NCBI RefSeq assembly: GCF_001547935.1
Contig: NZ_AP014635.1
Location: 2,108,001-2,172,000, forward strand
Length of the DNA stretch: 64,000 nucleotides
Direction: 5' to 3'
Origin: Vibrio tritonius
GTDB taxonomy: Bacteria > Pseudomonadota > Gammaproteobacteria > Enterobacterales > Vibrionaceae
A program made the position numbers and the translations under genes. Shown piece after piece: positions 45,809 through 56,232 of this stretch (its first letter is position 1; every line of letters begins with the position of its first letter). The notes under the pieces were generated by a model. That model saw only the letters and a program-made list of their open reading frames with translations. It was not told the origin of the DNA and made no database searches.

Positions 45809-46111
45809 ATGCCGAATAAATCTTATAAATTGAGCCGTCTAGCTCAAGGACATTTGCTCAAAATTAAAAATTACACTGTCGAAAATTTTTCAGATACGCA
45901 ATGGACTAAATATAAAGCGGCTTTACTTACTGCTTTTCAAGCTTTAGCTGATAACCCTGAATTAGGGAAAAATTGTTATGACATTTACCGCAGCGGCTTC
46001 TACTTTCATGTGGGTAAGCACACCGCTTACTATACCAAAGAAGATGGCTTTATCCTCATAGTTGCAGTACTGGGGCAATCCCAACTTCCTCAGAAACATC
46101 TACATTCATAA
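45809..46111 (+). CDS. ParE/RelE-superfamily toxin
   Basis: This 100-residue basic protein has the ParE pattern: YKLSRLAQGHLLKIKNYTVE, ALADNPELGKNCYDIYRSGF, and ILIVAVLGQSQLP at the end. ParE toxins poison gyrase, while RelE relatives cleave mRNA; the sequence fits ParE better. With the antitoxin it forms an addiction module, common in Vibrio integrons, that would select against loss of cassettes. Confidence 0.87.
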   Translation: MPNKSYKLSRLAQGHLLKIKNYTVENFSDTQWTKYKAALLTAFQALADNPELGKNCYDIYRSGFYFHVGKHTAYYTKEDGFILIVAVLGQSQLPQKHLHS

Positions 46112-46160
46112 CGAACTCGCCTCTGAATGTCATTTTGGAGACAATGATACTGATGAAGTA

Positions 46161-46249
46161 AACTAACGCTGAGAACAGTTGCAAAATATTTGGCGCGTCA
46201 TTTTGCTCTGCAAAATTCGTGACATGTATTTTGTCAATTGATGCGACTT
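46161..46249 (-). repeat. attC site, left arm, interrupted by IS element A
   Basis: AACTAAC at 46161-46167 starts an attC whose arm continues through GTCAATTGATGCGACTT (ending 46249). The last core GTTAGGC is now at 47790-47796, on the far side of an IS110-family element. The uninterrupted relative at 51367-51456 reads GATGCGACTTGTTATAT, which fixes the insertion point. Confidence 0.8.
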
Positions 46250-46308
46250 ATAGTTACTCCATTCCACAAGTTCTGGTTTACCAAAACCAATGAAAGGTGG
46301 AACATGCT

Positions 46309-46375
46309 TCTACTGATTACGAATATGCATGCGTAAAGCATTCGATGCTTTTAACAATAGATTCGAATCAGTAGA
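46309..46375 (+). ncRNA. Predicted bridge RNA target loop of IS element A
   Basis: TCTACTGATTACGAAT (46309-46324) pairs with ATTCGAATCAGTAGA (46361-46375) with one bulged A. The enclosed loop contains ATGCG (46329-46333), a 7-bp hairpin AAAGCAT-TCG-ATGCTTT, then TAACAA (46352-46357). ATGCG equals the left flank (GATGCGACTT), and TAACAA is the reverse complement of TTGTTA across the insertion point into the right flank. This is the layout of an IS110 bridge RNA target-binding loop. Confidence 0.65.
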
Positions 46376-46494
46376 GGCTACTCGATTTCCTAACGCATAC
46401 TCAGGGATTGCCGCTTCATCGACTCTCTATAATATCTGCGAGAAACGAGTTTTCAGCACGTTCCAACAATCACTTTACTCTTAGGAGGCTTACC

Positions 46495-47757
46495 ATGAAA
46501 GCTTTCTCTCCCTCCGATTTCGCCGTCTTAATTGGTATCGATTGGGCTGACCAAAAACATGACATTTGCGAAATACTTCCTAACCAAAAAACTCCTAAAT
46601 TCTATGTTATTTCCTCTAACCCGAAAGCCATTCATGAATGGGCAAACCAACTCAAAACCCGATTCCCTGGGCAAAAAATAGCGGTCGCTTGTGAGTTAAA
46701 AAAAGGCCCTCTAATCTACGCATTGGAGAAGTACGATCACATCGTTTTGTTTCCCATCAACCCCGTGACGGTCTCTCAAGTTAGAAAAGCATTTGCCAAT
46801 AGTGGTGCCAAAGATGACCCTAGCGACGCTTTCATTATCGCCCAGCTAATCGAGCGGAACATGGATAAATTCATGCCTCTTGAAGCGGATAAACCCGCTA
46901 TCAGAGCCATTGCCCGTCTCGTCGAAGGCCGTAGAAAGTTCGTTCAAAATAGAGTAAAACTCACCAATCGAATCGTCTCCCTTCTCAAAGAATACTATCC
47001 TCAACCTATTGAATGGTTTAAAGAAAAAGACACCGAAATCTTCTGTGACTTTATCACTCAATGGCCCACTCTTGAACGCGCACAACAAGCTAGACCTTCC
47101 TCATTACTGAAGTTTTTCAACGCACATAATGCCCACTACCCCGAACGAAACCAACAACGTGTAGAACAGATAAAATCGGCGATATCACTCACTCAAGACC
47201 AAGGCATCATGGCCCCAAACACGTTTATGGTGATTATCTGCATTGAGCAGTTACGTCTACTTATCCGAGCTATTACCGTCATCGATAAAGAAATTAAACG
47301 TCGCTACAAGGAGCAGAAAGACCGCGTTATTTTTGATAGCTTTCCCGGTGCAGGACCTCAGTTAGCACCACGATTGCTTGTGGCATTTGGTACTAATAGA
47401 GACCGATACAATAACGCCGCTGAATTGCAAAAATACGCGGGTATTGCACCTGTGATTGAACGGAGCGGCAAAAAATCATGGACTCATTGGCGCTATAGTT
47501 GCCCCAAGTTCTTACGCCAAACGTTCATTGAATGGGCTGGACTCTCCGTTCGTTTTTCATTCTGGGCCAAAGCGTTCTATCAGCAACAAATTGAAAAAGG
47601 TAAACCGCATAACACCGCTATACGAGCACTCGCTTTTAAATGGATTCGGATAGCTTTTTGCTGTTGGAAAACTAACACTCCCTACGATGAAACAAAGTAT
47701 CTAAACGCTTTAAAAACAAAGGGGTCACAGTTACTAAACTATGCTGTCCATTGTTGA
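46495..47757 (+). CDS. IS110-family transposase (DEDD), element A
   Basis: This protein of about 420 residues begins at the ATG at 46495, which follows a strong AGGAGG; the frame upstream is not coding. The N-terminal RuvC-like domain has VLIGIDWADQKHD and DDPSDAFIIAQLIE. The C-terminal Transposase_20 domain has DSFPGAGPQLAPRLLVAFG and KYAGIAPVIERSGKKS, containing the catalytic serine region. The gene appears intact. Confidence 0.93.
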   Translation: MKAFSPSDFAVLIGIDWADQKHDICEILPNQKTPKFYVISSNPKAIHEWANQLKTRFPGQKIAVACELKKGPLIYALEKYDHIVLFPINPVTVSQVRKAFANSGAKDDPSDAFIIAQLIERNMDKFMPLEADKPAIRAIARLVEGRRKFVQNRVKLTNRIVSLLKEYYPQPIEWFKEKDTEIFCDFITQWPTLERAQQARPSSLLKFFNAHNAHYPERNQQRVEQIKSAISLTQDQGIMAPNTFMVIICIEQLRLLIRAITVIDKEIKRRYKEQKDRVIFDSFPGAGPQLAPRLLVAFGTNRDRYNNAAELQKYAGIAPVIERSGKKSWTHWRYSCPKFLRQTFIEWAGLSVRFSFWAKAFYQQQIEKGKPHNTAIRALAFKWIRIAFCCWKTNTPYDETKYLNALKTKGSQLLNYAVHC

Positions 47758-47798
47758 AATTTTACTTGTTGTCCATCTCAGGGCGTGTTGTTAGGCAT

Positions 47799-48194
47799 TT
47801 ACACACCAGAGTATACTTTTGCCTTGTTAAAACATTCTGTAAATACCTGAATATCATTAGCTGAAAAGGTATTGATATCTAACCTTTTTCTAGCATTATC
47901 AAGGTAAGAGTAAAGCTCTTTTTCAAACGGTGACCCCACTTTAACGAATGCGGCAGAATGATCAGTATGATGTTGTCCAAAACATAGACGCCCTAATTCA
48001 CGGTCAAAAAAGAATTCGATTCTATCTCCACCATTTGCTTTTATTGTTACGCCTACTGTTCCTCCATCACGATATATGAGTATATCAATAATTTCTTCTG
48101 GGAAGATTGGCTGTTTAGGCCAACCATAAATTTCAGGATAGCCAGGAATTTCAGCATCTAATCGCGGGGTTATATTTTTATCTTTTTTCATCAA
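47799..48194 (-). CDS. Hypothetical cassette protein, 131 aa
   Basis: I do not recognise the family. It is soluble, with YPEIYGWPKQPIFPEEIIDI near the start, GGTVGVTIKANGGDRIEFFF in the middle and a helical C terminus. The stop lies two bases from an attC core, which marks it as a cassette gene. Its attC is split by IS element A. Confidence 0.65.
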   Translation of the reverse strand: MMKKDKNITPRLDAEIPGYPEIYGWPKQPIFPEEIIDILIYRDGGTVGVTIKANGGDRIEFFFDRELGRLCFGQHHTDHSAAFVKVGSPFEKELYSYLDNARKRLDINTFSANDIQVFTECFNKAKVYSGV

Positions 48195-48206
48195 TGTTAC
48201 CTAGAT

Positions 48207-48326
48207 GCCTAACGTTTGGGATAATAGGACTAATTACAGGCAAGGAGAACAAGCCTACACGAGGGTCGAAAACCTCCAGAACCAAGAGACGCCTGTAATT
48301 TGTTCCTATTCATCCCTTTGTTAGCT
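48207..48326 (-). repeat. attC site of the kinase-like cassette
   Basis: A 120-bp site with cores GCCTAAC (48207-48213) and GTTAGCT (48320-48326). ATAATAGGACTAATTACAGG and CTGTAATTTGTTCCTATT form the long imperfect inverted repeat. The TAA stop of the kinase gene falls inside the core. Confidence 0.88.
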
Positions 48327-48932
48327 GCATGCTGGGTTTGGGATTGTTTTCAATAGCCAATTTTTAATCTTATTTGTTTGTTCTTGAAACGTTAAGTTAG
48401 TAACATCTAATATATCAATGCTTTTGTTCTTTAAAAACCATTCTTCATATATTCTGAAGGCATCCAGGTTGAAAGTTGAGCGCCCTCGAGTATTGTCTAA
48501 TGACATTCTCTTTTTCAATTCATCATCTGACGCTGTAAGGAATAGTATTTTGTCGACCTCACACTGTCTAAGCTCGAGCAATTCTCTCTTCAAAATCTCA
48601 TGGACCTTCCATTTCTTGTTTGTGAGTTTTGGATAATTCAAAGTGTAACACTCTGTATCTTCCGGCCCACGGTCAAAAACTGTGACTCCACTTGGTAAAG
48701 AGCTGTACCTTTCAATTTCTGCACTTATAAAAATCCTTTGATTCTCAATGAATCCACTTTCCTCATTGATGTTAATTTTGAGAGAATTTCTCTTCTTTAC
48801 AATAGGTGATGGATTCTCGTAAGAGAAGTTAATTTCCGGAAGGGTTGGCTCTAGTTGCCTTAAGCAGGTAGTCTTGCCTACTGCCATAGGGCCTTGAACA
48901 GATATTATGAATTTATTTTGATCAGTTGTCAT
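48321..48932 (-). CDS. P-loop nucleotide kinase-like protein (cassette gene)
   Basis: This protein of about 203 residues has a Walker A GPMAVGKTTCLRQL and VTVFDRGPEDTECY as a likely Walker B/DxG region, with ILFLTASDDELKKR resembling the core of deoxynucleoside or dephospho-type kinases. The substrate is unknown. ATG 48932 is preferred over the upstream 48983, which would start inside the neighbouring attC. The stop codon is within the core of its attC. Confidence 0.78.
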   Translation of the reverse strand: MTTDQNKFIISVQGPMAVGKTTCLRQLEPTLPEINFSYENPSPIVKKRNSLKININEESGFIENQRIFISAEIERYSSLPSGVTVFDRGPEDTECYTLNYPKLTNKKWKVHEILKRELLELRQCEVDKILFLTASDDELKKRMSLDNTRGRSTFNLDAFRIYEEWFLKNKSIDILDVTNLTFQEQTNKIKNWLLKTIPNPACS

Positions 48933-48940
48933 AAAAATGC

Positions 48941-49049
48941 TGCTAGCGTCTAATTCAATGGTGCATAAACACCAGTATTTCAAAGGATAAATAACTTAAA
49001 ACAAAGAATGCCAAACGCTATATGCATCCATTGAAATTTCTTGTTAGCA
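48941..49049 (-). repeat. attC site of the acetyltransferase cassette
   Basis: A 109-bp site bounded by TGCTAGC (48941-48947, one mismatch to the core) and GTTAGCA (49043-49049). TCTAATTCAATGGTGCATAA and ATGCATCCATTGAAATTTCT form the inverted repeat. Confidence 0.78.
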
Positions 49050-49460
49050 ATCGGTCGTGTGACAGAAAACAAACTCGGCTTCACCATCGAAGTTGAAGTC
49101 CTTGATTTCAGCAACTTGTTCGAATCCGAGATGTCGTAGCAAGGACTGCATCTTGGTGTTACTCACTTCTGTCGTCGTGTAAACCTTGTGCCAGGTTGCT
49201 TGGTCGATAGCAGATTTTATCAGCTCGGTTGCTACCCCTTTTCCCCGGTAATCAGGATGAGTGTTGACGATCGAGATCAGTGGTTTATTGAAGAATTCGT
49301 TGCACGTAAGCTTGGCATAACCGACACACGAGTTGGAGCCAAGATCTGCAATCAGTAACTCACCGCGTTCCATATCCATTCTGCGATCACCTGCAAATTC
49401 ATCGAAATCTCGAAGAACTGGGTAATCACTAATTTTACTTTTTCTTATGTGCAATTCCAT
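49044..49460 (-). CDS. GNAT-family N-acetyltransferase (cassette gene)
   Basis: This 138-residue protein has VNTHPDYRGKGVATELIKSA as acetyl-CoA motif and SNTKMQSLLRHLGFEQVAEI. Its TAA stop lies within the attC core at 49043-49049, the classic sign of a cassette gene. The substrate is unknown. Confidence 0.87.
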   Translation of the reverse strand: MELHIRKSKISDYPVLRDFDEFAGDRRMDMERGELLIADLGSNSCVGYAKLTCNEFFNKPLISIVNTHPDYRGKGVATELIKSAIDQATWHKVYTTTEVSNTKMQSLLRHLGFEQVAEIKDFNFDGEAEFVFCHTTDC

Positions 49461-49476
49461 GCGATTTCCTTGAGAT

Positions 49477-49561
49477 TGCTAACGTGTAGTTCAATTGCCG
49501 ACTGCTGGCGCTAATTTTGGGAACCAAAATTCGTGACAGTAGGAGGTCAATTGGAACGTTT
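49477..49561 (-). repeat. attC site cut short by an IS remnant
   Basis: TGCTAAC (49477-49483) opens an attC whose arms TTCAATTGCCGACTGCTGGC and GTCAATTGGAACG pair. The final GTTAGGC-type core is missing; an IS end follows directly. Confidence 0.75.
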
Positions 49562-49604
49562 TGTATGGATAATAATTACCGATTTAGGGTAATGTGAGAC
49601 CCAG
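49562..49604 (+). mobile_element. Left-end remnant of an IS110-family element like element C
   Basis: About 43 bp matches the left end of element C (53457-53509) at roughly 80 percent: both read TGTATGGATAATAA, then TTAGGGTAA, then GTGAGACCCA and CTTTAGCT. The rest of the element and the attC core are deleted, joining it to the MAPEG gene, whose stop codon lies in the remnant. Confidence 0.75.
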
Positions 49605-49606
49605 CT

Positions 49607-49996
49607 TTAGCTCGGAATACATTCCCAAATAATGGCTAGTGAACAGCCGAATGAAATTACCCAAACGAGTGATCGCAAGCTACTTTTATCCATCAAATAC
49701 AGTATGTTATAAACAACTCTCGAGCCAATATGAATTATTGCCAATAACTGAACAATTTCCCCCGTTGTTCCCGTAGTTACAGCCAGCAAAATTGCTGTCG
49801 CAAAAATAATAAGAGATTCAAAAGTGTTTTGGTGTGCAGCTAAAGCTCGGGCACCAAATCCTTTTAAACTCGCTTGCTGTTCCCTAGGATAATGATTGTC
49901 GTAACCACCCGCTCTATTCATTGCAATAACTAACGGGATGCGTCCTATATACGGTAGTAATACCGCTATAATTAAACACCAAATTAATGTTATCAA
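49607..49996 (-). CDS. MAPEG-family membrane protein (cassette gene)
   Basis: This 129-residue protein has four hydrophobic segments and the MAPEG pattern: NRAGGYDNHYPREQQASLKG, RALAAHQNTFESLIIFATA. The superfamily includes glutathione-linked membrane enzymes, but bacterial members are uncharacterised. The start is TTG at 49996 with GGAG about ten bases upstream. The last codon and stop are provided by an IS remnant, so the natural C terminus may be slightly changed. Confidence 0.83.
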   Translation of the reverse strand: MITLIWCLIIAVLLPYIGRIPLVIAMNRAGGYDNHYPREQQASLKGFGARALAAHQNTFESLIIFATAILLAVTTGTTGEIVQLLAIIHIGSRVVYNILYLMDKSSLRSLVWVISFGCSLAIIWECIPS

Positions 49997-50108
49997 TCTA
50001 AATTATCTCCGTACCTGAATAACCATTTAACGAATGATATGGACTCCCTCTTCCCAAGCCACCACGTGCCATACTTAACCATGACGCGTTGATCATTTGG
50101 AGGTTGCT

Positions 50109-51137
50109 ATGTCCACCATTCAAACTATTGGCATTGACCTTGCCAAGAATGTTTTTAGTATTCATGGCGTTGATACATATGGCAAGTGTGTTCTTAAAAA
50201 AACTGTCAAAAGAAACAAACTGTTAGAGGTGTTTGCTAACTTACCACCATGCTTAATTGGTATGGAGGCTTGCTCCGGTGCCCACTACTGGGCTAGAGAA
50301 CTGATTAAACTTGGTCATGACCCGAGAATAATGGCCCCTAAGTTCGTCATTCCATACCGCCAAAATGAAAAGAATGATGCGAATGACGCTGAAGCCATTT
50401 GCGAAGCTGTTGGCAGGCCAAAAACTCGTTTTGTCAGTATCAAAAGCCCTGAACAACAAGCCGTGCTTTGTCTTCATCGTATTCGACAAGGCATTATTAA
50501 AAGCCGTACAGCTACCATTAACCAACTACGTGGATTGCTATCTGAATTTGGTATTGTAATACCTCAAGGTCGCTTCACATTACAAAATTCCATTGGCTCT
50601 ATTTTAGAAGATGCCGAAAATGGTATTCCTGATTTAGCTCGCGAGTTACTCTTTGATTTGGTTCAACGCATACGAAATGCGAACGACGAGGTTTTACGTT
50701 ACGACCGTAAAATTTACGCCATCGTTAAACACATGGAAACCGCACAGAAACTGATGACCATTCCTGGAGTCGGTGAACACAGCGCTACAGCGATTGTCGC
50801 AACGGTTGCCGATGGTAAACAGTTCAAATCCAGCCGCCAATTTGCCGCATGGATAGGTTTAGTGCCAAGACAATTCTCTACTGGTGGTCATTCTAAGCTC
50901 GGACATATCAGTAAACGAGGTGATAAGCATATTCGAACTTTGCTTGTCCATGGTGCACGAGCCGTGATTGCTCGATGCAAAGATAAAACCGACAGAAACA
51001 GCCTCTGGTTACAAAAATTGGTTGAACGACGTGGCTATACACGAGCCATTGTCGCTTTGGCTGCTAAGAACGCCCGAATTATTTGGGCATTACTGACTTC
51101 GGGAAAAGAATACCAAGCTGACTACATAACCAGTTAG
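50109..51137 (+). CDS. IS1111-group transposase (IS110 family), element B
   Basis: This protein of about 342 residues has TIGIDLAKNVFSIHGVD, EKNDANDAEAICEA, PGVGEHSATAIVATV and AAWIGLVPRQFSTGGHSKLG, covering the DEDD domain and the Transposase_20 domain with the catalytic serine. The ATG at 50109 follows GGAGG. The gene is intact. Confidence 0.95.
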   Translation: MSTIQTIGIDLAKNVFSIHGVDTYGKCVLKKTVKRNKLLEVFANLPPCLIGMEACSGAHYWARELIKLGHDPRIMAPKFVIPYRQNEKNDANDAEAICEAVGRPKTRFVSIKSPEQQAVLCLHRIRQGIIKSRTATINQLRGLLSEFGIVIPQGRFTLQNSIGSILEDAENGIPDLARELLFDLVQRIRNANDEVLRYDRKIYAIVKHMETAQKLMTIPGVGEHSATAIVATVADGKQFKSSRQFAAWIGLVPRQFSTGGHSKLGHISKRGDKHIRTLLVHGARAVIARCKDKTDRNSLWLQKLVERRGYTRAIVALAAKNARIIWALLTSGKEYQADYITS

Positions 51138-51196
51138 CTCACACCGAGTCAACACAATAGCTATTGATGACAATACGGTCAGACCGAGGTGCTAAA

Positions 51197-51241
51197 GCCT
51201 GTTGTGCTCAGAAGTAGAAAATACTGTCTAACGAATGAGGC
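51197..51241 (+). ncRNA. Predicted seekRNA target loop of IS element B
   Basis: GCCT (51197-51200) and AGGC (51238-51241) close a loop that contains TGTGCTCAG (51203-51211), a small hairpin AGTA-GAAAA-TACT, and TAACGAATGA (51229-51238). TGTGCTCAG is the exact reverse complement of the right flank CTGAGCACA (51367-51375). TAACGAATGA is identical to the left junction (50028-50037). It lies in the 3' non-coding region, where IS1111-group elements encode their guide RNA. Confidence 0.7.
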
Positions 51242-51366
51242 AAGCATCAAGCGAAAATCATCAGGGTAATGGCAAGTAAGCCAGTTAAATACCGAATGTA
51301 GATCTGCTGTCCGATCCTCTGTTGTCTAAGAGAGCTATTGTTGACAAAAAGAGGGAGTCCATGTAG

Positions 51367-51456
51367 CTGAGCACAGTTGCAAAAATATATGGCGCTATAT
51401 TTTGGGTACCAAAAATCGTGACATGTATTTTTGTCAATTGATGCGACTTGTTATAT
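51367..51456 (-). repeat. attC site (right part) interrupted by element B
   Basis: The site runs from CTGAGCACAGTTGC to GTTATAT (51450-51456). The missing first core TTTAACG is at 50026-50032, left of the IS. The arms GTTGCAAAAATATATGGCGC and GACATGTATTTTTGTCAATT match the site at 46161 closely. Confidence 0.82.
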
Positions 51457-51458
51457 GC

Positions 51459-52133
51459 CTACGCATCAGTCAAAATGATCTGTTCAACTACCGCCCCCAT
51501 TGTTAACTCATTAATATCTGTTTTTCTATACAACGGATTATAAATAGAACCAGTTCGATTTATATAAGCGGCTTTTAAACCTGCACACATTGCACCATGT
51601 GTATCCCAGTCATGAGTAGCAACTAACCTTAGGTCGCTTGCATCGCATTTGAGTTTTTCTGATGCAAATTTATAAGCATCAAAACTAGGTTTAAAGGTGT
51701 TTACTTCTTCTACTGAAATGACTTCATCAAAATATTCATTTAATCCAGCATTAGTTATTTGTTTTGTGATTAAATTTCGTGATGAATTCGAAAGAGCAAC
51801 AACTTTAAACCCAGCAGATCTTAACTGTGCTAATGCCGGCTTAATATCGTCATGTGGAGGTAAACTAGCGAAAGTGTTTAAAACATCATCTAACTTTTGA
51901 TTAGTTACGTTTACACTCAATTTCGAAGCTAAAGATTCCAGTGTGATTCGAGATAATGTACCAAAATCCGTTTTGACCGATGTTACTAAAGAAACGGTGG
52001 AGGTATGAAGCAACATAGCAAACCATGTATCCATAAAATTTTCATCTCCAAACAAATCCTTAAACTTTGGTCTTAACATTTGGAGGTTTAAAACTGTTTC
52101 ATTAATATCAAACAATACTACTGTTTGTTTCAA
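51459..52133 (-). CDS. HAD type II haloacid dehalogenase-like protein (cassette gene)
   Basis: This 224-residue protein has VVLFDINETVLNLQML as HAD motif I (FDxNxT as in (S)-2-haloacid dehalogenases), VVALSNSSRNLI and EVNTFKPSFDAYKFA, and LVATHDWDTHGAMCAGL. Activity on haloacids or a phosphorylated compound is possible. The stop is three bases from the core of its attC. Confidence 0.83.
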   Translation of the reverse strand: MKQTVVLFDINETVLNLQMLRPKFKDLFGDENFMDTWFAMLLHTSTVSLVTSVKTDFGTLSRITLESLASKLSVNVTNQKLDDVLNTFASLPPHDDIKPALAQLRSAGFKVVALSNSSRNLITKQITNAGLNEYFDEVISVEEVNTFKPSFDAYKFASEKLKCDASDLRLVATHDWDTHGAMCAGLKAAYINRTGSIYNPLYRKTDINELTMGAVVEQIILTDA

Positions 52134-52177
52134 AGTTAACTCCTCAATATTGTGTTTTTATATTTTGTGTGCAGAGC

Positions 52178-52284
52178 ATATAACGTCCCAATCAATTGCG
52201 CATTGCACGGTGACTAAAGCGTTTGAAAAACTTTGAAACGCAACAACGAAGATTGACTGTGTCGATTGCATTGGATTGTTAGGC
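52178..52284 (-). repeat. attC site
   Basis: A 107-bp site bounded by ATATAAC (52178-52184) and GTTAGGC (52278-52284). CAATCAATTGCGCATTGC and GTGTCGATTGCATTGG form the outer arms. It is of the same class and length as the site at 45350-45456. Confidence 0.88.
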
Positions 52285-52686
52285 ATATGGTGTACCAGCT
52301 GCTACACCATCAGCTTTTTTGCTCGGATCTGTTTCCATTAGATACAATTCCCAACATTCTTTCACAAATGCTTCTCTGGCTGTTTCCAACGATTCATGTT
52401 GACTAAATACGTTAAAATGACCATGTTCTCCATAACCAAATAGCCATTTCCCATTGTCTTCGACGATATAAAATTTATCATTACCGCCGCTGACACCTTC
52501 ATCTAAGATAGTTCTGGGGATACCAAATTCCTTCGCATATTCCCAAAGCTCTTGATAGGTCAACTCTAAAATGGACTTAGGGTCGCCTTTTTTATGCCAA
52601 TCTGCTCCAAAGAAATCTGATAGAAAGTAGGTCATTCTCAATTTCAAAATGGCTTTAATTAATTCTAATTTACTCGGAAGTTTCAT
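52279..52686 (-). CDS. Hypothetical cassette protein, 135 aa
   Basis: I do not recognise the family. It is soluble and contains SILELTYQELWEYAKEFGIP and GNDKFYIVEDNGKWLFGYGE, a strand-rich pattern reminiscent of SUKH/SMI1-type immunity proteins, but the similarity is weak. The TAA stop is inside the attC core GTTAGGC. Confidence 0.7.
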   Translation of the reverse strand: MKLPSKLELIKAILKLRMTYFLSDFFGADWHKKGDPKSILELTYQELWEYAKEFGIPRTILDEGVSGGNDKFYIVEDNGKWLFGYGEHGHFNVFSQHESLETAREAFVKECWELYLMETDPSKKADGVAAGTPYA

Positions 52687-52693
52687 TTAATAT

Positions 52694-52764
52694 GCCTAAC
52701 GCTTGCAACAGCAGCAAACTAGAGCCTAAGCGATTAATTTGTCTGTTGGTTGCTCTTGTTATAT
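52694..52764 (-). repeat. Short attC site
   Basis: A 71-bp site with cores GCCTAAC (52694-52700) and GTTATAT (52758-52764); GCAACAGCAG and CTGTTGGTTGC pair. It follows the 188-residue cassette gene. Confidence 0.75.
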
Positions 52765-52782
52765 TCGTTCTAACGTTGCTGA

Positions 52783-53349
52783 CTAATACTTTTCAAGGCT
52801 ATAGAAGTAACGAATTGCAAAACAGAACTTCAATATGTCCATTTTTATATGCCAACAATTCTTACCTAAACGACCTTTTAGTGAGCACTTTCCATTCCAG
52901 TATTTAGGGGTTCCATCAGAAGAAGCAAACTCTAGCTCAAATGTTTCAGCATGAATTATTTTATTACAGCACTCTCTAACAGAGGGATAAAAATTGCCTG
53001 ATATTACTTCCACGACATCAGTTATGTGCTCGTAAGCTTCTTTATCTGATGAATATAATTCGTCATCATCGCTATCTACATATGTGTCCTGATAAATTCG
53101 AGTTTGAGTAGCGCATTGAATTAGTAGCGAACTCACATTTTCATACAACCAACCAAAATACTCATCATATGCCAAATCTAAATTCGTACATTCATAGTCA
53201 TAATTTTTCTCGACAAAATACTCTTTATGTAGAGAAGTGACATATGCTTCACTGCCTGACACAATCTGTTCCAAAAACATTGCGTCATTACATATCTTAT
53301 TGAAATATATAGGGTGACTCAAATTCTTCTCCAAAGAATAAAACGCCAC
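52783..53349 (-). CDS. Hypothetical cassette protein, 188 aa
   Basis: I do not recognise the family. It is acidic, with tyrosine- and glutamate-rich stretches (NYDYECTNLDLAYDEYFGWL, DSDDDELYSSDKEAYEHITD), and has no membrane segment or catalytic motif that I can see. The AT-rich composition differs from core genes, as usual for cassettes. Confidence 0.65.
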   Translation of the reverse strand: MAFYSLEKNLSHPIYFNKICNDAMFLEQIVSGSEAYVTSLHKEYFVEKNYDYECTNLDLAYDEYFGWLYENVSSLLIQCATQTRIYQDTYVDSDDDELYSSDKEAYEHITDVVEVISGNFYPSVRECCNKIIHAETFELEFASSDGTPKYWNGKCSLKGRLGKNCWHIKMDILKFCFAIRYFYSLEKY

Positions 53350-53359
53350 ATTAAGGTGT

Positions 53360-53455
53360 GAGCAACGCTACCACGAAACTTAACCATACCACCGTAAACA
53401 CAAAACCCAACGATGGAATGAAAAATGCCAAGCATTGGGAATCACTCTTAAATGC
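53360..53455 (-). repeat. attC site, left arm, interrupted by element C
   Basis: From GAGCAAC (weak core) through AACCCAACGATGG to TTAAATGC. The second core GTTAGGT is at 54644-54650 beyond the IS. The arm sequence is less conserved than at other sites, but the far core and the cassette gene beside it support the assignment. Confidence 0.6.
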
Positions 53456-53523
53456 TTGTATGGATAATAACTACTCAAATTAGGGTAAAGTGAGACCCAT
53501 ACTTTAGCTGCAACTAAAGCCCT

Positions 53524-53593
53524 CTATGTCGTAGTTCGATTGAATGCAGGCTCCTCTATCGAGAGACCGATAACAAACATGAACGCGACATAG
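53524..53593 (+). ncRNA. Predicted bridge RNA target loop of IS element C
   Basis: CTATGTCG (53524-53531) and CGACATAG (53586-53593), extended by GTTC and GAAC, enclose AATGC (53543-53547), a hairpin CTCT-ATCG-AGAG, and TAACAAAC (53571-53578). AATGC equals the left flank TTAAATGC. TAACAAAC is the reverse complement of GTTTGTTA at the right junction (54640-54647). The order matches element A. Confidence 0.65.
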
Positions 53594-53665
53594 AACTCCA
53601 AGCATCAAACTCGAATACTCGACTGGGTCTCGAACCCGCATTACGCAAGCAAGAGTTAGCTTATT

Positions 53666-54622
53666 ATGAATACAAACACACTTCAAAACATTAATGTCGG
53701 TGTTGATACTGGCAAGGCAAATCTTGATATTTACATCCGTCCGCTCGATATATTTTTCACTGTATCTAATAATGAAAAAGGCATTAAAGACGCAATCAAA
53801 ACCATCAAAAAACACCACCCTCAACGAATTGTGATAGAAGCGACTGGTCGTCTCGAAATGCCGTTTATTTTAGCCTGCTCTAAAGCTAATTTGCCTTTCG
53901 TTATCGCCAATCCTATCCACATTAAACGCTTTGCTGGAGCGATTGGACGTAGAGCAAAAACGGACAAGCTCGATGCACAATTGATTGCCCATTATAGCGA
54001 GGTTATCCAGCCTAAACTCTCTCAATTGAAACCTGAAATCATGCGTTTAATGAGTGACTTAGTTGCTAGAAGACACCAAATTCTAACAATGCAAACCATG
54101 GAGAAGAATCGGTTACAACAACTCCCCAAAACGCTTCATTCTACAATCAACCCAATCATTACCGCATTCAAAAAGCAGATAGAAAAAATTGAAACTCTTA
54201 TCGTTTCTCTTATCGAAAATACACCTGACTATCAGAACAAAAATATCATATTACAAAGCGTCCCAGGCATTGGAAAAGTGAGTGCAGCTGCCATCATAAG
54301 TAATGTTCCTGAACTCGGTTATATCAACAATAAACAAGCAGCATCTTTGATTGGCGTCGCCCCCATGAATCGAGAAAGTGGTCGCTATAAAGGCAAACGG
54401 ATTATTCAAGGCGGACGTGCTCAAGTACGCACAGTTCTGTATATGGCCATGATGTCTGCAATGCAATCTAACCCTGTTTTTAAGGCGACTTACCAACGGC
54501 TACATGATGCAGGAAAACCAAAAAAAGTGGCGATAATTGCCTGCGTTAGAAAGATGGTAGTGATCCTTAATTCAATGCTCAGAGATGGTGCTATGTGGGA
54601 CGAAAATATCGCGAAAAATTAG
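53666..54622 (+). CDS. IS110-family transposase, element C
   Basis: This 318-residue protein has INVGVDTGKANLDIYI, AKTDKLDAQLIAHYSEV, QSVPGIGKVSAAAIISNV and SLIGVAPMNRESGRYKGKR, giving the DEDD domain and Transposase_20 domain with the catalytic serine. It is shorter than the element A transposase and clearly a different lineage. The gene appears intact. Confidence 0.94.
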   Translation: MNTNTLQNINVGVDTGKANLDIYIRPLDIFFTVSNNEKGIKDAIKTIKKHHPQRIVIEATGRLEMPFILACSKANLPFVIANPIHIKRFAGAIGRRAKTDKLDAQLIAHYSEVIQPKLSQLKPEIMRLMSDLVARRHQILTMQTMEKNRLQQLPKTLHSTINPIITAFKKQIEKIETLIVSLIENTPDYQNKNIILQSVPGIGKVSAAAIISNVPELGYINNKQAASLIGVAPMNRESGRYKGKRIIQGGRAQVRTVLYMAMMSAMQSNPVFKATYQRLHDAGKPKKVAIIACVRKMVVILNSMLRDGAMWDENIAKN

Positions 54623-54657
54623 TTATTGACGCCATACTCGTTTGTTAGGTTAATGGC

Positions 54658-55125
54658 TTAACGCGCAAGAATAACTCGCATTTTTATATATCGTATTTCT
54701 GAGTGCCCCTGTGTTTTAATACCTACACCAATTTGCTGAAAGCCCACACGCTTGTAACATGATATCGCTCGTTGATTAGCGTCTCGAACATTTAAATATA
54801 CTGTCCCAAACCACTTCTGAGCTTTTAAGTAGGAGAACAGTAATTGTATGCTACTTGACCCAATACCTTTACTGAAGTAATTAGAGCTAAAAAGCATCAT
54901 ACCTAAAACCGTACATTCCGGTTTATCAGTTCGATCAAGCCAAATCACACCAGCAGCTTCTGAATCGACCTCGATAATTTTCCAAGCTAATGTATTTTCA
55001 AGCATCTGCTCGTAGGTGTTGCCGCTCGGTAAATAGCGAGACATGTACTGACCTGCTTCAATCATATTTGCACTTTTGTGCAAGTTATCGATATCTGACA
55101 AAAGCACATCTCTTAATGAAATCAT
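54658..55125 (-). CDS. GNAT-family N-acetyltransferase, first cassette of the array
   Basis: This 155-residue protein has MLFSSNYFSKGIGSSSIQLL and VRDANQRAISCYKRVGFQQI. It lies next to the integrase, so it is the most recently inserted position and should be the best transcribed cassette. Its attC is split by element C. Confidence 0.87.
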   Translation of the reverse strand: MISLRDVLLSDIDNLHKSANMIEAGQYMSRYLPSGNTYEQMLENTLAWKIIEVDSEAAGVIWLDRTDKPECTVLGMMLFSSNYFSKGIGSSSIQLLFSYLKAQKWFGTVYLNVRDANQRAISCYKRVGFQQIGVGIKTQGHSEIRYIKMRVILAR

Positions 55126-55132
55126 CTTATTA

Positions 55133-55200
55133 ACCTAACAGTTCTTAGACAGACAACGTTTGTATTTTCTTGTCTATCTATATTTTACGTTCTTTCCTAC
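55133..55200 (-). other. Probable attI site and first cassette junction
   Basis: ACCTAAC (55133-55139) is the junction core between the first cassette and the integrase-side sequence. The following TTCTTAGACAGACAACG and CTTGTCTATCT can pair. By position this is attI. The cassette promoter should lie between here and intI but cannot be pinned down. Confidence 0.6.
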
Positions 55201-55315
55201 TACTTTTCCCTCATCATTAACAGCCAAGTATGAGAGAAGTAGGGTTTTACGCTTTCGTGATCAAAAAATACCGACATTGTCTGTTTAATCTATCCACAGG
55301 CATAATTTACAATAA

Positions 55316-55331
55316 CTGTATATTTAAACAG
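55316..55331 (+). promoter_or_regulatory. LexA box upstream of the integron integrase
   Basis: CTGTATATTTAAACAG is a perfect CTG-N10-CAG LexA site, 13 bp before the intI ATG. SOS control of integron integrases is known in vibrios. Confidence 0.92.
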
Positions 55332-55344
55332 TATTGGTATTTGT

Positions 55345-56232
55345 ATGAAATCGCCTTTTTTAACTAGCCTAAAAGAGTTCATGTTGGCGCGACATTACGC
55401 TCGCAAAACCATTCAAACGTATCTGTATTGGATAGTACAGTACATCCGTTTTCATCAGAATCAGCACCCGAGTAAACTAACCAATGCCGATGTTGAGCAA
55501 TTTTTGACTTTTCTTGTCTCTCAGGCAAACGCTTCGGCTTCTACGCAAAATATTGCATTAAACGCCTTAGTTTTTCTTTATAAGGAGTATCTCCAACAAC
55601 CTCTTGATATTGATTTACGGTTTAGAAAATCGACCAAACACAAAAATTTGCCTGTGGTACTCACCCCACGAGAGGTGAAGTTATTATTCGATGTTATCCC
55701 GTCTCAATCTTTGCTTCCTTATCAACTGATGTATGGCTCTGGCTTACGTTTGATGGAAACCGTCCGCTTACGTGTAAAAGATATCGATTTTGATTATGGT
55801 GCACTGCGAATTTGGCAAAGCAAAGGCGGAAAAAACCGTGTGGTTACCTTAGCAAGAGAGCTACATTCGGCCTTACATCAACAAATTCAAATTGTTCGTC
55901 ATATCCACCAGCTCGACCTACAAAATCCGCTTTATGAAGGAGTTAAATTGCCGACTCGCTTGAAGGAGAAATTTCCCAATGCCGATAAATCATTGGGTTG
56001 GCAGTTTCTTTTCCCTGCAAGGCATCTTGCTCAATATGGGATAGATGAAGGTTGGTATCGCCATCATATTCATGAAACATCTTTACAAAAAATGATCGCG
56101 AGATCTCAAAGCAAGCTTAACTTAAACAAGTCGATTTCTTGCCATACGTTACGTCATTCATTTGCTACCCATTTACTAGAGTCGGGGGCGGATATCCACA
56201 CAGTGTTTTCCCCACGCTACCGCCCTACTTAA
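55345..56232 (+). pseudogene. intI: Integron integrase IntI, C-terminal catalytic part missing
   Basis: This 295-residue tyrosine recombinase is of the IntI type; Vibrio relatives have about 320 residues. Present are the SAM-like N domain, box I GSGLRLMETVRL (R135), K160 in WQSKGGKNR, the IntI-specific insert (WQFLFPARHLAQYGIDEGWY split by an acidic region) and HTLRHSFATHLLESGADIHT (H267, R270). After that the expected EQLGHxDVKTTxIYTHV, with the histidine and the catalytic tyrosine, is absent, and the frame jumps to VFSPRYRPT. An in-frame deletion of about 25-30 codons explains this. The protein should be unable to recombine. Confidence 0.88.

Follow-up and report, generated by a model that had tools for sequence, protein, structure and literature searches.

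IS110-family insertion sequences of three lineages at integron attC sites in Vibrio tritonius, with predicted guide RNAs that match both sides of the junction

A 64,000-nucleotide (nt) stretch of the Vibrio tritonius genome (contig NZ_AP014635.1, positions 2,108,001 to 2,172,000; hereafter the window, numbered from its first letter) carries three insertion sequences (ISs) of the IS110 family, termed elements A, B and C, at the edges of attC recombination sites in an integron cassette array. It is very likely that three lineages of RNA-guided ISs use integron attC as landing sites, with guide pairs that read both sides of the junction. The strength of the guide case lies in the several different guide-target pairs found within each lineage, and the sequences indicate that the core-reading guide is nearly fixed per lineage while the other guide appears retuned to host attC subtypes. 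It is probable, at a lower level of confidence, that attC is a convergent landing site, at least three lineages having reprogrammed their guides to the integron core: two IS110-type groups, to all appearance unreported, would read GTTA at the gene-side end and the IS1111 group would read TAACG at the opposite end, the core guide being frozen and its partner retuned.

In the explanation preferred here, each element encodes a DEDD recombinase and, in its non-coding end, a predicted structured RNA; this end lies upstream of the gene in A and C, as in IS110/IS621, and downstream in B, as in IS1111. One internal loop of that RNA would hold two guides pairing with opposite strands flanking the insertion point. 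For A and C, TTGTTA at the R'' box, on the gene side, would be the sequence read by the right guide TAACAA, with the left guide reading the neighbouring attC arm, and a further RNA segment matches the element's own right end; in B, one guide would have the sense of TAACG at the R' box while the other would read the neighbouring arm. RNA expression, binding and catalysis by the three elements are what we infer from sequence, and the splitting of an R'' box from the remaining site would likely cost that cassette its recombination.

Elements A, B and C and the attC sites that they border

All three elements are present where a preliminary description of the window had placed them, and their proteins all pass the NCBIfam model NF033542 ('IS110 family RNA-guided transposase'). 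The features of element A and its attC are as follows.

46250..47789, plus strand: element A, IS110-type IS at the R'' end of an attC; ends set by homologue comparison, ATAGTT at the left and, at the right, CTCAGGGCGTGTT followed directly by GTTA
46495..47757, plus strand: A transposase, 420 amino acids (aa), DEDD and Transposase_20 domains (Pfam PF01548, PF02371; NF033542)
46307..46377, plus strand: target-binding loop of the predicted bridge RNA, with outer stem, left guide, hairpin, right guide and outer stem (RNAalifold, 12 non-coding sequences)
46326..46337, plus strand: predicted left target guide, holding ATGCG as in the left flank GATGCGACTT; covaries with the left flank
46352..46357, plus strand: predicted right target guide TAACAA, complementary to TTGTTA; changes in step with the right flank over the A clade and its sister clade
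46400..46406, plus strand: putative donor guide CTCAGGG, identical in sequence to the right end at 47777-47783 and constant in the 12 aligned non-coding sequences
46164..46249, plus strand: left part of the attC split by A, recognised by likeness to the attC of B; the R'' box GTTAGGC resumes at 47790

The transposase gene of A is preceded by 245 nt and followed by 32 nt of non-coding sequence, and the element's ends are ambiguous by 2 base pairs (bp), a TT core being common to both sides. At its own site the left guide matches over 5 nt (ATGCG) and the right guide pairs over 6 nt (TAACAA with TTGTTA); this own-site match is short, and its significance is taken from homologues. The attC of A shares 73 identities with that of B over 88 aligned columns, a value as high as which was reached by 0 of 500 shuffles.

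Element B is organised differently, with its RNA region behind the transposase gene.

50033..51366, plus strand: element B, IS1111-type IS at the R' end of an attC; 14-bp sub-terminal inverted repeats kept in homologues
50109..51137, plus strand: B transposase, 342 aa (Pfam PF02371, PF01548; NF033542)
50039..50052, plus strand: left sub-terminal inverted repeat ATGGACTCCCTCTT, conserved in homologues
51349..51362, plus strand: right sub-terminal inverted repeat AAGAGGGAGTCCAT, conserved in homologues
51203..51211, plus strand: predicted first guide TGTGCTCAG, complementary over 9 nt to the right flank CTGAGCACA, with which it covaries
51229..51238, plus strand: predicted second guide TAACGAATGA, equal in sequence to the left flank TAACG plus the left end AATGA
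51367..51456, plus strand: attC beside B (attC-model match at 51364-51454, the site being itself among the 16 sequences of the model); its R' box TAACG lies at 50028-50032

The 14-bp repeats of B fall inside the range of 7-17 bp given for the sub-terminal inverted repeats of the IS1111 group in the available text of PMC11208160. Both predicted guides lie within the 229-nt non-coding region that follows the transposase stop.

The third element, C, has a long upstream region (207 nt, against 22 nt downstream of the gene), and its terminal repeat is merely 5 bp (CCATA/TATGG), with no IS1111-like sub-terminal inverted repeats.

53459..54644, plus strand: element C, IS110-type IS at the R'' end of an attC; homologue-conserved ends TATGG (left) and CCATA...TTG (right), with the TTG core shared
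53666..54622, plus strand: C transposase, 318 aa, IS621-related (Pfam DEDD and Transposase_20; NF033542; sequence match to IS621 and ISCro4)
53492..53631, plus strand: predicted bridge RNA, closed by GAGACCCA/TGGGTCTC (RNAalifold, 16 non-coding sequences)
53540..53547, plus strand: predicted left target guide TTGAATGC, for the left flank TTAAATGC (8 nt including one G-U); covaries with the left flank
53571..53576, plus strand: predicted right target guide TAACAA, complement of TTGTTA (6 nt), read from sequence
53615..53621, plus strand: predicted left donor guide ATACTCG, equal to the right end at 54634-54640; the same relation holds in 61 of 64 loci
53341..53458, plus strand: left part of the attC split by C (attC-model match, 97.6 bits); the R'' box resumes at 54645

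Because the cassette genes in the window are mostly on the minus strand, running away from the integron integrase gene at 55345-56232, an attC read on the plus strand starts with its R' box (TAAC...) at the left and ends with its R'' box (GTTA...) at the right, adjoining the stop codon of its own gene; the R'' assignment is based on this gene orientation. The earlier placement of each element at an attC edge holds for all three, with the refinement that B borders the R' box, the mirror image of the R'' box bordered by A and C. Elements A and C each lie directly left of a GTTAGG box (47790, 54644), separating it from the remaining attC, and B lies directly right of TAACG (50028-50032), at the opposite attC end. 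The flanks are GCGACTT and GTTAGGC for A, TAACG and CTGAGCACAG for B, and AAATGCTTG and TTAGG for C; the attC sites of A and B are of one subtype (CTGAG.ACAG ... GATGCGACTT), which the two elements read from opposite ends. In each element the two guides match the two sides of its own insertion site, as had been proposed. It had also been proposed that the TAAC in each second guide is complementary to the GTTA of the core, and this applies to A and C, whose TAAC pairs with the top strand; that of B reads in the same sense as the left target, and its expected partner is the bottom strand.

Insertion sites among homologues

C-family matches at E ≤ 1e-60 were found in 68 of 296 genomes of the host's family, the host included, and 73 loci were examined. 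The shared TTG is followed by TTA in 63 of the 64 loci parsed by script. Nine loci were unparsed, among which L084, L094, L110 and L111 read GTTA and five were uncounted (no right end is visible in L010, L112 and L122, the base in L120 is N, and the right end in L107 continues into IS1111-like sequence), so that, of 68 readable loci overall, 67 have GTTA directly after the element. A simple palindrome-complementarity test for attC proved too weak and was replaced by a covariance model built solely from sites beside B-family elements (16 sequences). With match lists transcribed by hand, 47 of 65 C loci have a model match ending ≤20 nt from the left junction and 54 of 65 have any attC match (L029, L044, L049, L112, L114, L119, L120 and L122, eight of the 73, were excluded).

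Relatives of A are distributed differently. None was found at E ≤ 1e-20 in the other 295 of the 296 genomes of the host's family, and at E ≤ 1e-100 a search of 369 genomes of the host's class returned A's own genome only. Relatives with 61-66% identity occur in records of Thalassolituus, Colwellia, Thalassotalea and Pseudoalteromonas (plasmid records, genomes and protein collections), and 39 of 325 genomes of Colwellia's family contain a match of A or its sister clade at E ≤ 1e-60. All 27 distinct places of the A clade, which is delimited at ≥57% identity and counts the window, have GTGTT as the element end with GTTA directly after it. For the sister clade (43-49% identity), GTTA stands at the junction in 0 of 27 readable right ends (28 places, with L222 unreadable and L217 read over two bases only), where GCGG, GCAG, AGAG, ATTG, GGGG and similar sequences are found instead. 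The attC model matched 19 of 25 A-clade loci versus 2 of 27 sister-clade loci (L200 and L203 of the 27 A-clade places, and L248 of the 28 sister-clade places, were left out). Several sister-clade members (L218, L243, L244, L240, L241, L227 and others) precede GCGGACGTT-like or AGAGACCTTAACCT-like sequences, which resemble other repeated sites.

B-family matches (E ≤ 1e-60) are present in 136 of the 296 genomes of the host's family, the host included, and TAACG precedes the left end in 45 of the 50 loci examined. Among the other five, the flanks are different in L142 (44% identical), TATCG stands in this place in L075, and in L071, L080 and L133 the repeat found is not the element end.

The clustering at attC could be a matter of survivorship, insertions elsewhere having been lost and attC edges being tolerant, and integron cassettes are largely dispensable DNA. 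Insertion is nonetheless base-exact and in a single orientation, and relatives of A from the same search persist outside attC, which makes this account very unlikely.

Predicted RNAs and the agreement of guides with targets

Non-redundant non-coding sequences were aligned for C (16 of 18), A (12 of 13) and B (9 of 11). The predicted RNA of C has 47 pairs, 11 of which are changed on both sides; the alignment holds 31 two-side-changed cells versus 7.9 in shuffles, a level that 0 of 500 shuffles reached, and in slid controls pairing fell to 26-41%. For A, 40 pairs are predicted, with 10 changed on both sides, all in helices 3 and 4 (15 two-side-changed cells versus 3.0 in shuffles, 0 of 500 reaching this). 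These shuffle controls leave relatedness in place. In both A and C, the helix richest in two-sided changes closes a loop made of stem, some 9-12 unpaired bases, hairpin, a second unpaired run of ~10 bases and stem. The RNA of B was predicted with 60 pairs, 8 changed on both sides, and a similar loop (no shuffle control). The stem-guide-hairpin-guide loop that had been described for each non-coding end is thus supported by compensatory changes in A and C, where the stem covariation sought as a check is present, and is a model prediction for B. An Rfam scan of 46000-55500 at E ≤ 1 gave no match.

Agreement between guides and targets was measured as the mean longest match over unique pairs, compared with permuted pairings. 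In the A lineage, the right guide gives 5.19 over 26 unique pairs versus 3.69 when permuted (0 of 5,000 permutations), and the sister clade alone gives 4.69 versus 3.66 (1 of 5,000). In a swap control, right guides of the attC clade scored 3.03 on sister targets and sister guides scored 2.76 on attC targets. Sister-clade right guides CCGCTT, CTCTTT and CAATTT are found at sites AAGCGG, AAAGAG and AAATTG. This test omitted L145-L147 (the same places as L201-L203), L200 and L248, and 47 loci were reduced to the 26 unique pairs; it also dropped L203, L217, L220, L224 and L225 (missing loops or flanks) and L222 (right end unreadable). The left guides behave similarly, with 4.92 versus 3.97 over 25 unique pairs in the A clade and 5.84 versus 5.01 over 50 unique pairs in the C family (0 of 5,000 in each). 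An A-clade guide TTTGAGC, for example, lies at a TTTGAGC site (L197), and in one host genus the C-family guide GTTGATGCAT is found at sites reading GTTGATGCAT (L116-L118 and L121), while L115, with the same guide, is at TTAAATGC.

In the B family (48 of the 50 loci, reduced to 38 unique pairs, with the non-attC locus L142 included), the first guide gives 6.03 versus 4.81 (0 of 5,000), and the variants TGTGCTCAG, TTAATTGGG, CTATAAAG, TTAGCTTGG and TTAATGCGG match CTGAGCACA, CCCAATTAA, CTTTATAG, CCAAGCTAA and CCGCATTAA, respectively. For the second guide, 37 of 38 have TAACGAATGA or a close variant of it. On the donor side of C, 61 of 64 loci have an RNA segment following GAATA that is identical to the bases following CCATA at the right end, across four variants and with 25.9 expected; because donor RNA and element end are inherited together, this count overstates independence. 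Four distant C relatives were fetched (L193-L196), and in L196, the one whose target was worked out, an RNA segment is complementary to GCTTTAAA in the element's own right flank.

These results bear on a prediction attached to the preliminary description, in which homologues at non-attC sites with unchanged guides would have counted against guided insertion. None occurs in the 27 A-clade loci, and the non-attC relatives, A's sister clade and L196, have different guides that match their own sites. In the C family this holds with qualification: GTTA is missing at 1 of 68 loci (L113, where the left guide is also changed and contains CATGGC), and some loci without a detected attC keep guide-matching bases.

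A number of observations count against guide-directed insertion at attC. The guide-target permutations ignore shared ancestry. L113 (contig G036:C100) keeps TAACAA yet precedes CATGG, the only C member with a changed right flank. The left-guide match amounts to just 2-3 exact bases in L003, L237, L198, L232, L083, L025, L026 and L108, and it slips by one base between targets GCTTG and GCTTTG, both of which the same guide accepts. Among the B pairs, 15 of 38 match over ≥7 bases and 23 of 38 over 3-6 bases, and B first guides recur at poorly matching subtypes such as CCCTGTTAAG. A junction attC went undetected by the model in 18 of 65 C loci, some of which have an other-type or partial attC by eye, and a few C loci (L024, L027, L035 and L088 among them) look non-attC while retaining guide-matching bases; the attC of A itself gives no model match at E ≤ 0.1. 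The palindrome test, weak as it was, reached p ≤ 0.01 in 16 of 59 C, 15 of 25 A and 1 of 23 sister sites. With respect to the RNAs, further pair types in C are not above shuffles (28 versus 27.8, 295 of 500) and those in A are weakly above them (19 versus 16.4, 14 of 500).

The position of all three elements at the edges of attC sites, which are imperfect palindromes, would also be expected if they recognised the folded attC hairpin, as class C group II introns do, with the guide matches being incidental; class C-attC introns are mentioned in the available text of PMC9229058. Such recognition is a very unlikely explanation for guides that covary with the flanking sequence, for sister elements that carry other guides and occupy other sites with matching bases, and for C copies (L024, L027 and L088) at sites without a detected attC but with guide-matching bases.

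Lineages, known systems and integron setting

The proteins of A, B and C share only ~27% mutual identity, and in a tree of 65 proteins the attC-targeting members form one clade per lineage (support of 100/100 for A, 99/91 for B and 100/100 for C) with long branches between them, in support of the distinct transposase lineages that had been recognised at the outset. The C protein matches the solved IS621 (E 2.2e-30) and ISCro4 (E 1.3e-31) transposases over nearly its full length, while A matches them in its C-terminal part only. In the tree, B groups with L142 and two further family members, C with relatives from Nostoc, Rhizobium, Deinococcus and Xenorhabdus plasmids, and A with relatives from cyanobacteria, planctomycetes and others. 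The tree carries a long-branch warning and its deep joins are unsure, with the three attC clades themselves well supported. Midpoint rooting places A and C on the same side, away from B; separate acquisition of attC targeting is thus drawn from the non-attC relatives and not from the tree alone, and on that basis the attC habit likely arose separately in each lineage.

The shared side of the tree, the occurrence of the same six bases in both lineages and the invariance of this segment in the C alignment would all fit a TAACAA that is a conserved structural part of IS110 RNAs, with an attC habit due to common ancestry rather than convergence. This is decidedly unlikely, as the sister clade of A has target-matching sequences in place of TAACAA, the distant C relative L196, the one of four with a target worked out, has a segment complementary to its own right flank, and A and C form separate clades, each with non-attC relatives.

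Targeting of attC by IS1111-type elements is established (PMC11187229, PMC11616780, PMC11089894 and PMC9229058, in the text available from each). Members of the IS1111-attC group include ISKpn4, ISPst6, ISPa25 and ISPa21, and the 'IS110' at attC in the available text of PMC11616780 is ISPa21, of the IS1111 group. By its features, element B would be a member of this kind: it is IS1111-type, with sub-terminal inverted repeats, a downstream non-coding region and one fixed attC end, and like ISKpn4 it has two guides ordered top-strand then bottom-strand (PMC11187229, available text). Its first guide fits one attC subtype, and the B family has at least five guide variants that follow subtypes. Elements A and C differ from the group in not being IS1111-type, lying outside the clade of B and having their non-coding region upstream.

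Both appear to represent unreported IS110-type attC groups. No IS110-type (upstream-RNA) element at attC is described in the open-access titles and abstract openings among the matches listed, and named members or reports may exist. The IS110-family elements described in Shewanella integrons in the available text of PMC9229058 include none that interrupts attC. With a 420-aa transposase, A falls in the same length class as an IS110-type subgroup with 395-455 aa transposases, for which no attC-targeting member is named in the available text of PMC11187229. ISEc21 and ISMch6, IS110-type seekRNA elements in the same text, share with A and C the upstream non-coding region, a bottom-strand match 5' of the top-strand match, and natural redirection by guide change; ISEc21 differs in that its target site is inside IS3-family transposase genes.

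Element C resembles IS621 and ISCro4 in its near full-length sequence match, its upstream RNA and its predicted target loop with left and right guides. The natural target of IS621 is repetitive extragenic palindromic (REP) elements, whereas C targets integron attC with a GTTA-reading right guide. Further likenesses, under the definitions in the available text of PMC11208160, are a donor guide that equals the element end and a core common to both sides; the same text associates IS621 with REP elements.

Taken together, related elements whose guides and targets changed together, with AAGCGG-type sites and the integron core as one such contrast between sister clades, would constitute a natural reprogramming series, in which the acquisition of new targets by RNA-guided transposons is readable from genomes and testable with existing bridge-RNA assays. 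If this is correct, insertion between a gene and the rest of its attC would lock the cassette, and the elements could shape which cassettes the integron still moves. Such elements may also freeze cassettes, or fuse them, within chromosomal integrons, which are regarded as a reservoir for resistance integrons.

The claim that every cassette array offers many landing sites was overstated. The left guide (A and C) or first guide (B) fits particular attC subtypes, and very few well-matched empty sites are present in the genome. Patterns were searched against the host's own genome with ≤1 mismatch and the reversed pattern as control: GATGCGACTTGTTA gave one exact match, at the R'' end, itself empty, of the attC carrying B, and three matches with one mismatch (control 4), TAACGCTGAGCACAG gave three with one mismatch, one of them A's attC (control 1), and TTAAATGCTTGTTA gave five with one mismatch (control 2). 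The left-plus-right target of A has an exact match at one genome site only, that same empty R'' end of the attC carrying B, and the left-plus-right target of C has no exact match in the host genome.

The integron integrase cuts at R' and not at R'', and its catalytic tyrosine is in the C-terminal part. In the integrase frame at 55345-56232, the TIGR02249 match stops at position 282 of 315 and a short unrelated tail follows, so that the C-terminal part is missing. With its integrase shortened in this way, the array may be locked.

The host genome consists of two contigs (3.43 and 1.79 Mb) and contains further C-family sequences. The other contig carries two more full-length copies, of which L003 borders an attC supported by the model and L004 one recognised by eye only, and the genome also has one 3'-truncated copy (L010). 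A remnant lies within the window.

49564..49612, plus strand: left end of a second C-family element, present as a remnant (87% identity across query bases 1-52)

A minus-strand gene of the MAPEG family (49607-49996) abuts the remnant with its 3' end. Left of the remnant, the sequence is attC-like by eye only, with no attC-model match there. Another IS110-type element, with four copies in the host genome (L005-L008), was considered as a non-attC control, its ends not being defined. A 384-aa element 40% related to it, a third IS110-family element, occurs at L143 710-1864 (Pseudoalteromonas plasmid pPBSW1), where by eye it seems to border an attC at the R' end, the R'' end of that same attC being occupied by an A-type element, with a C-type element ~3.5 kb away; it may represent a further attC-associated lineage. 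In L107, the C-family right end runs into a sequence resembling an IS1111 sub-terminal repeat (TGGACTCCC), which suggests stacked insertions.

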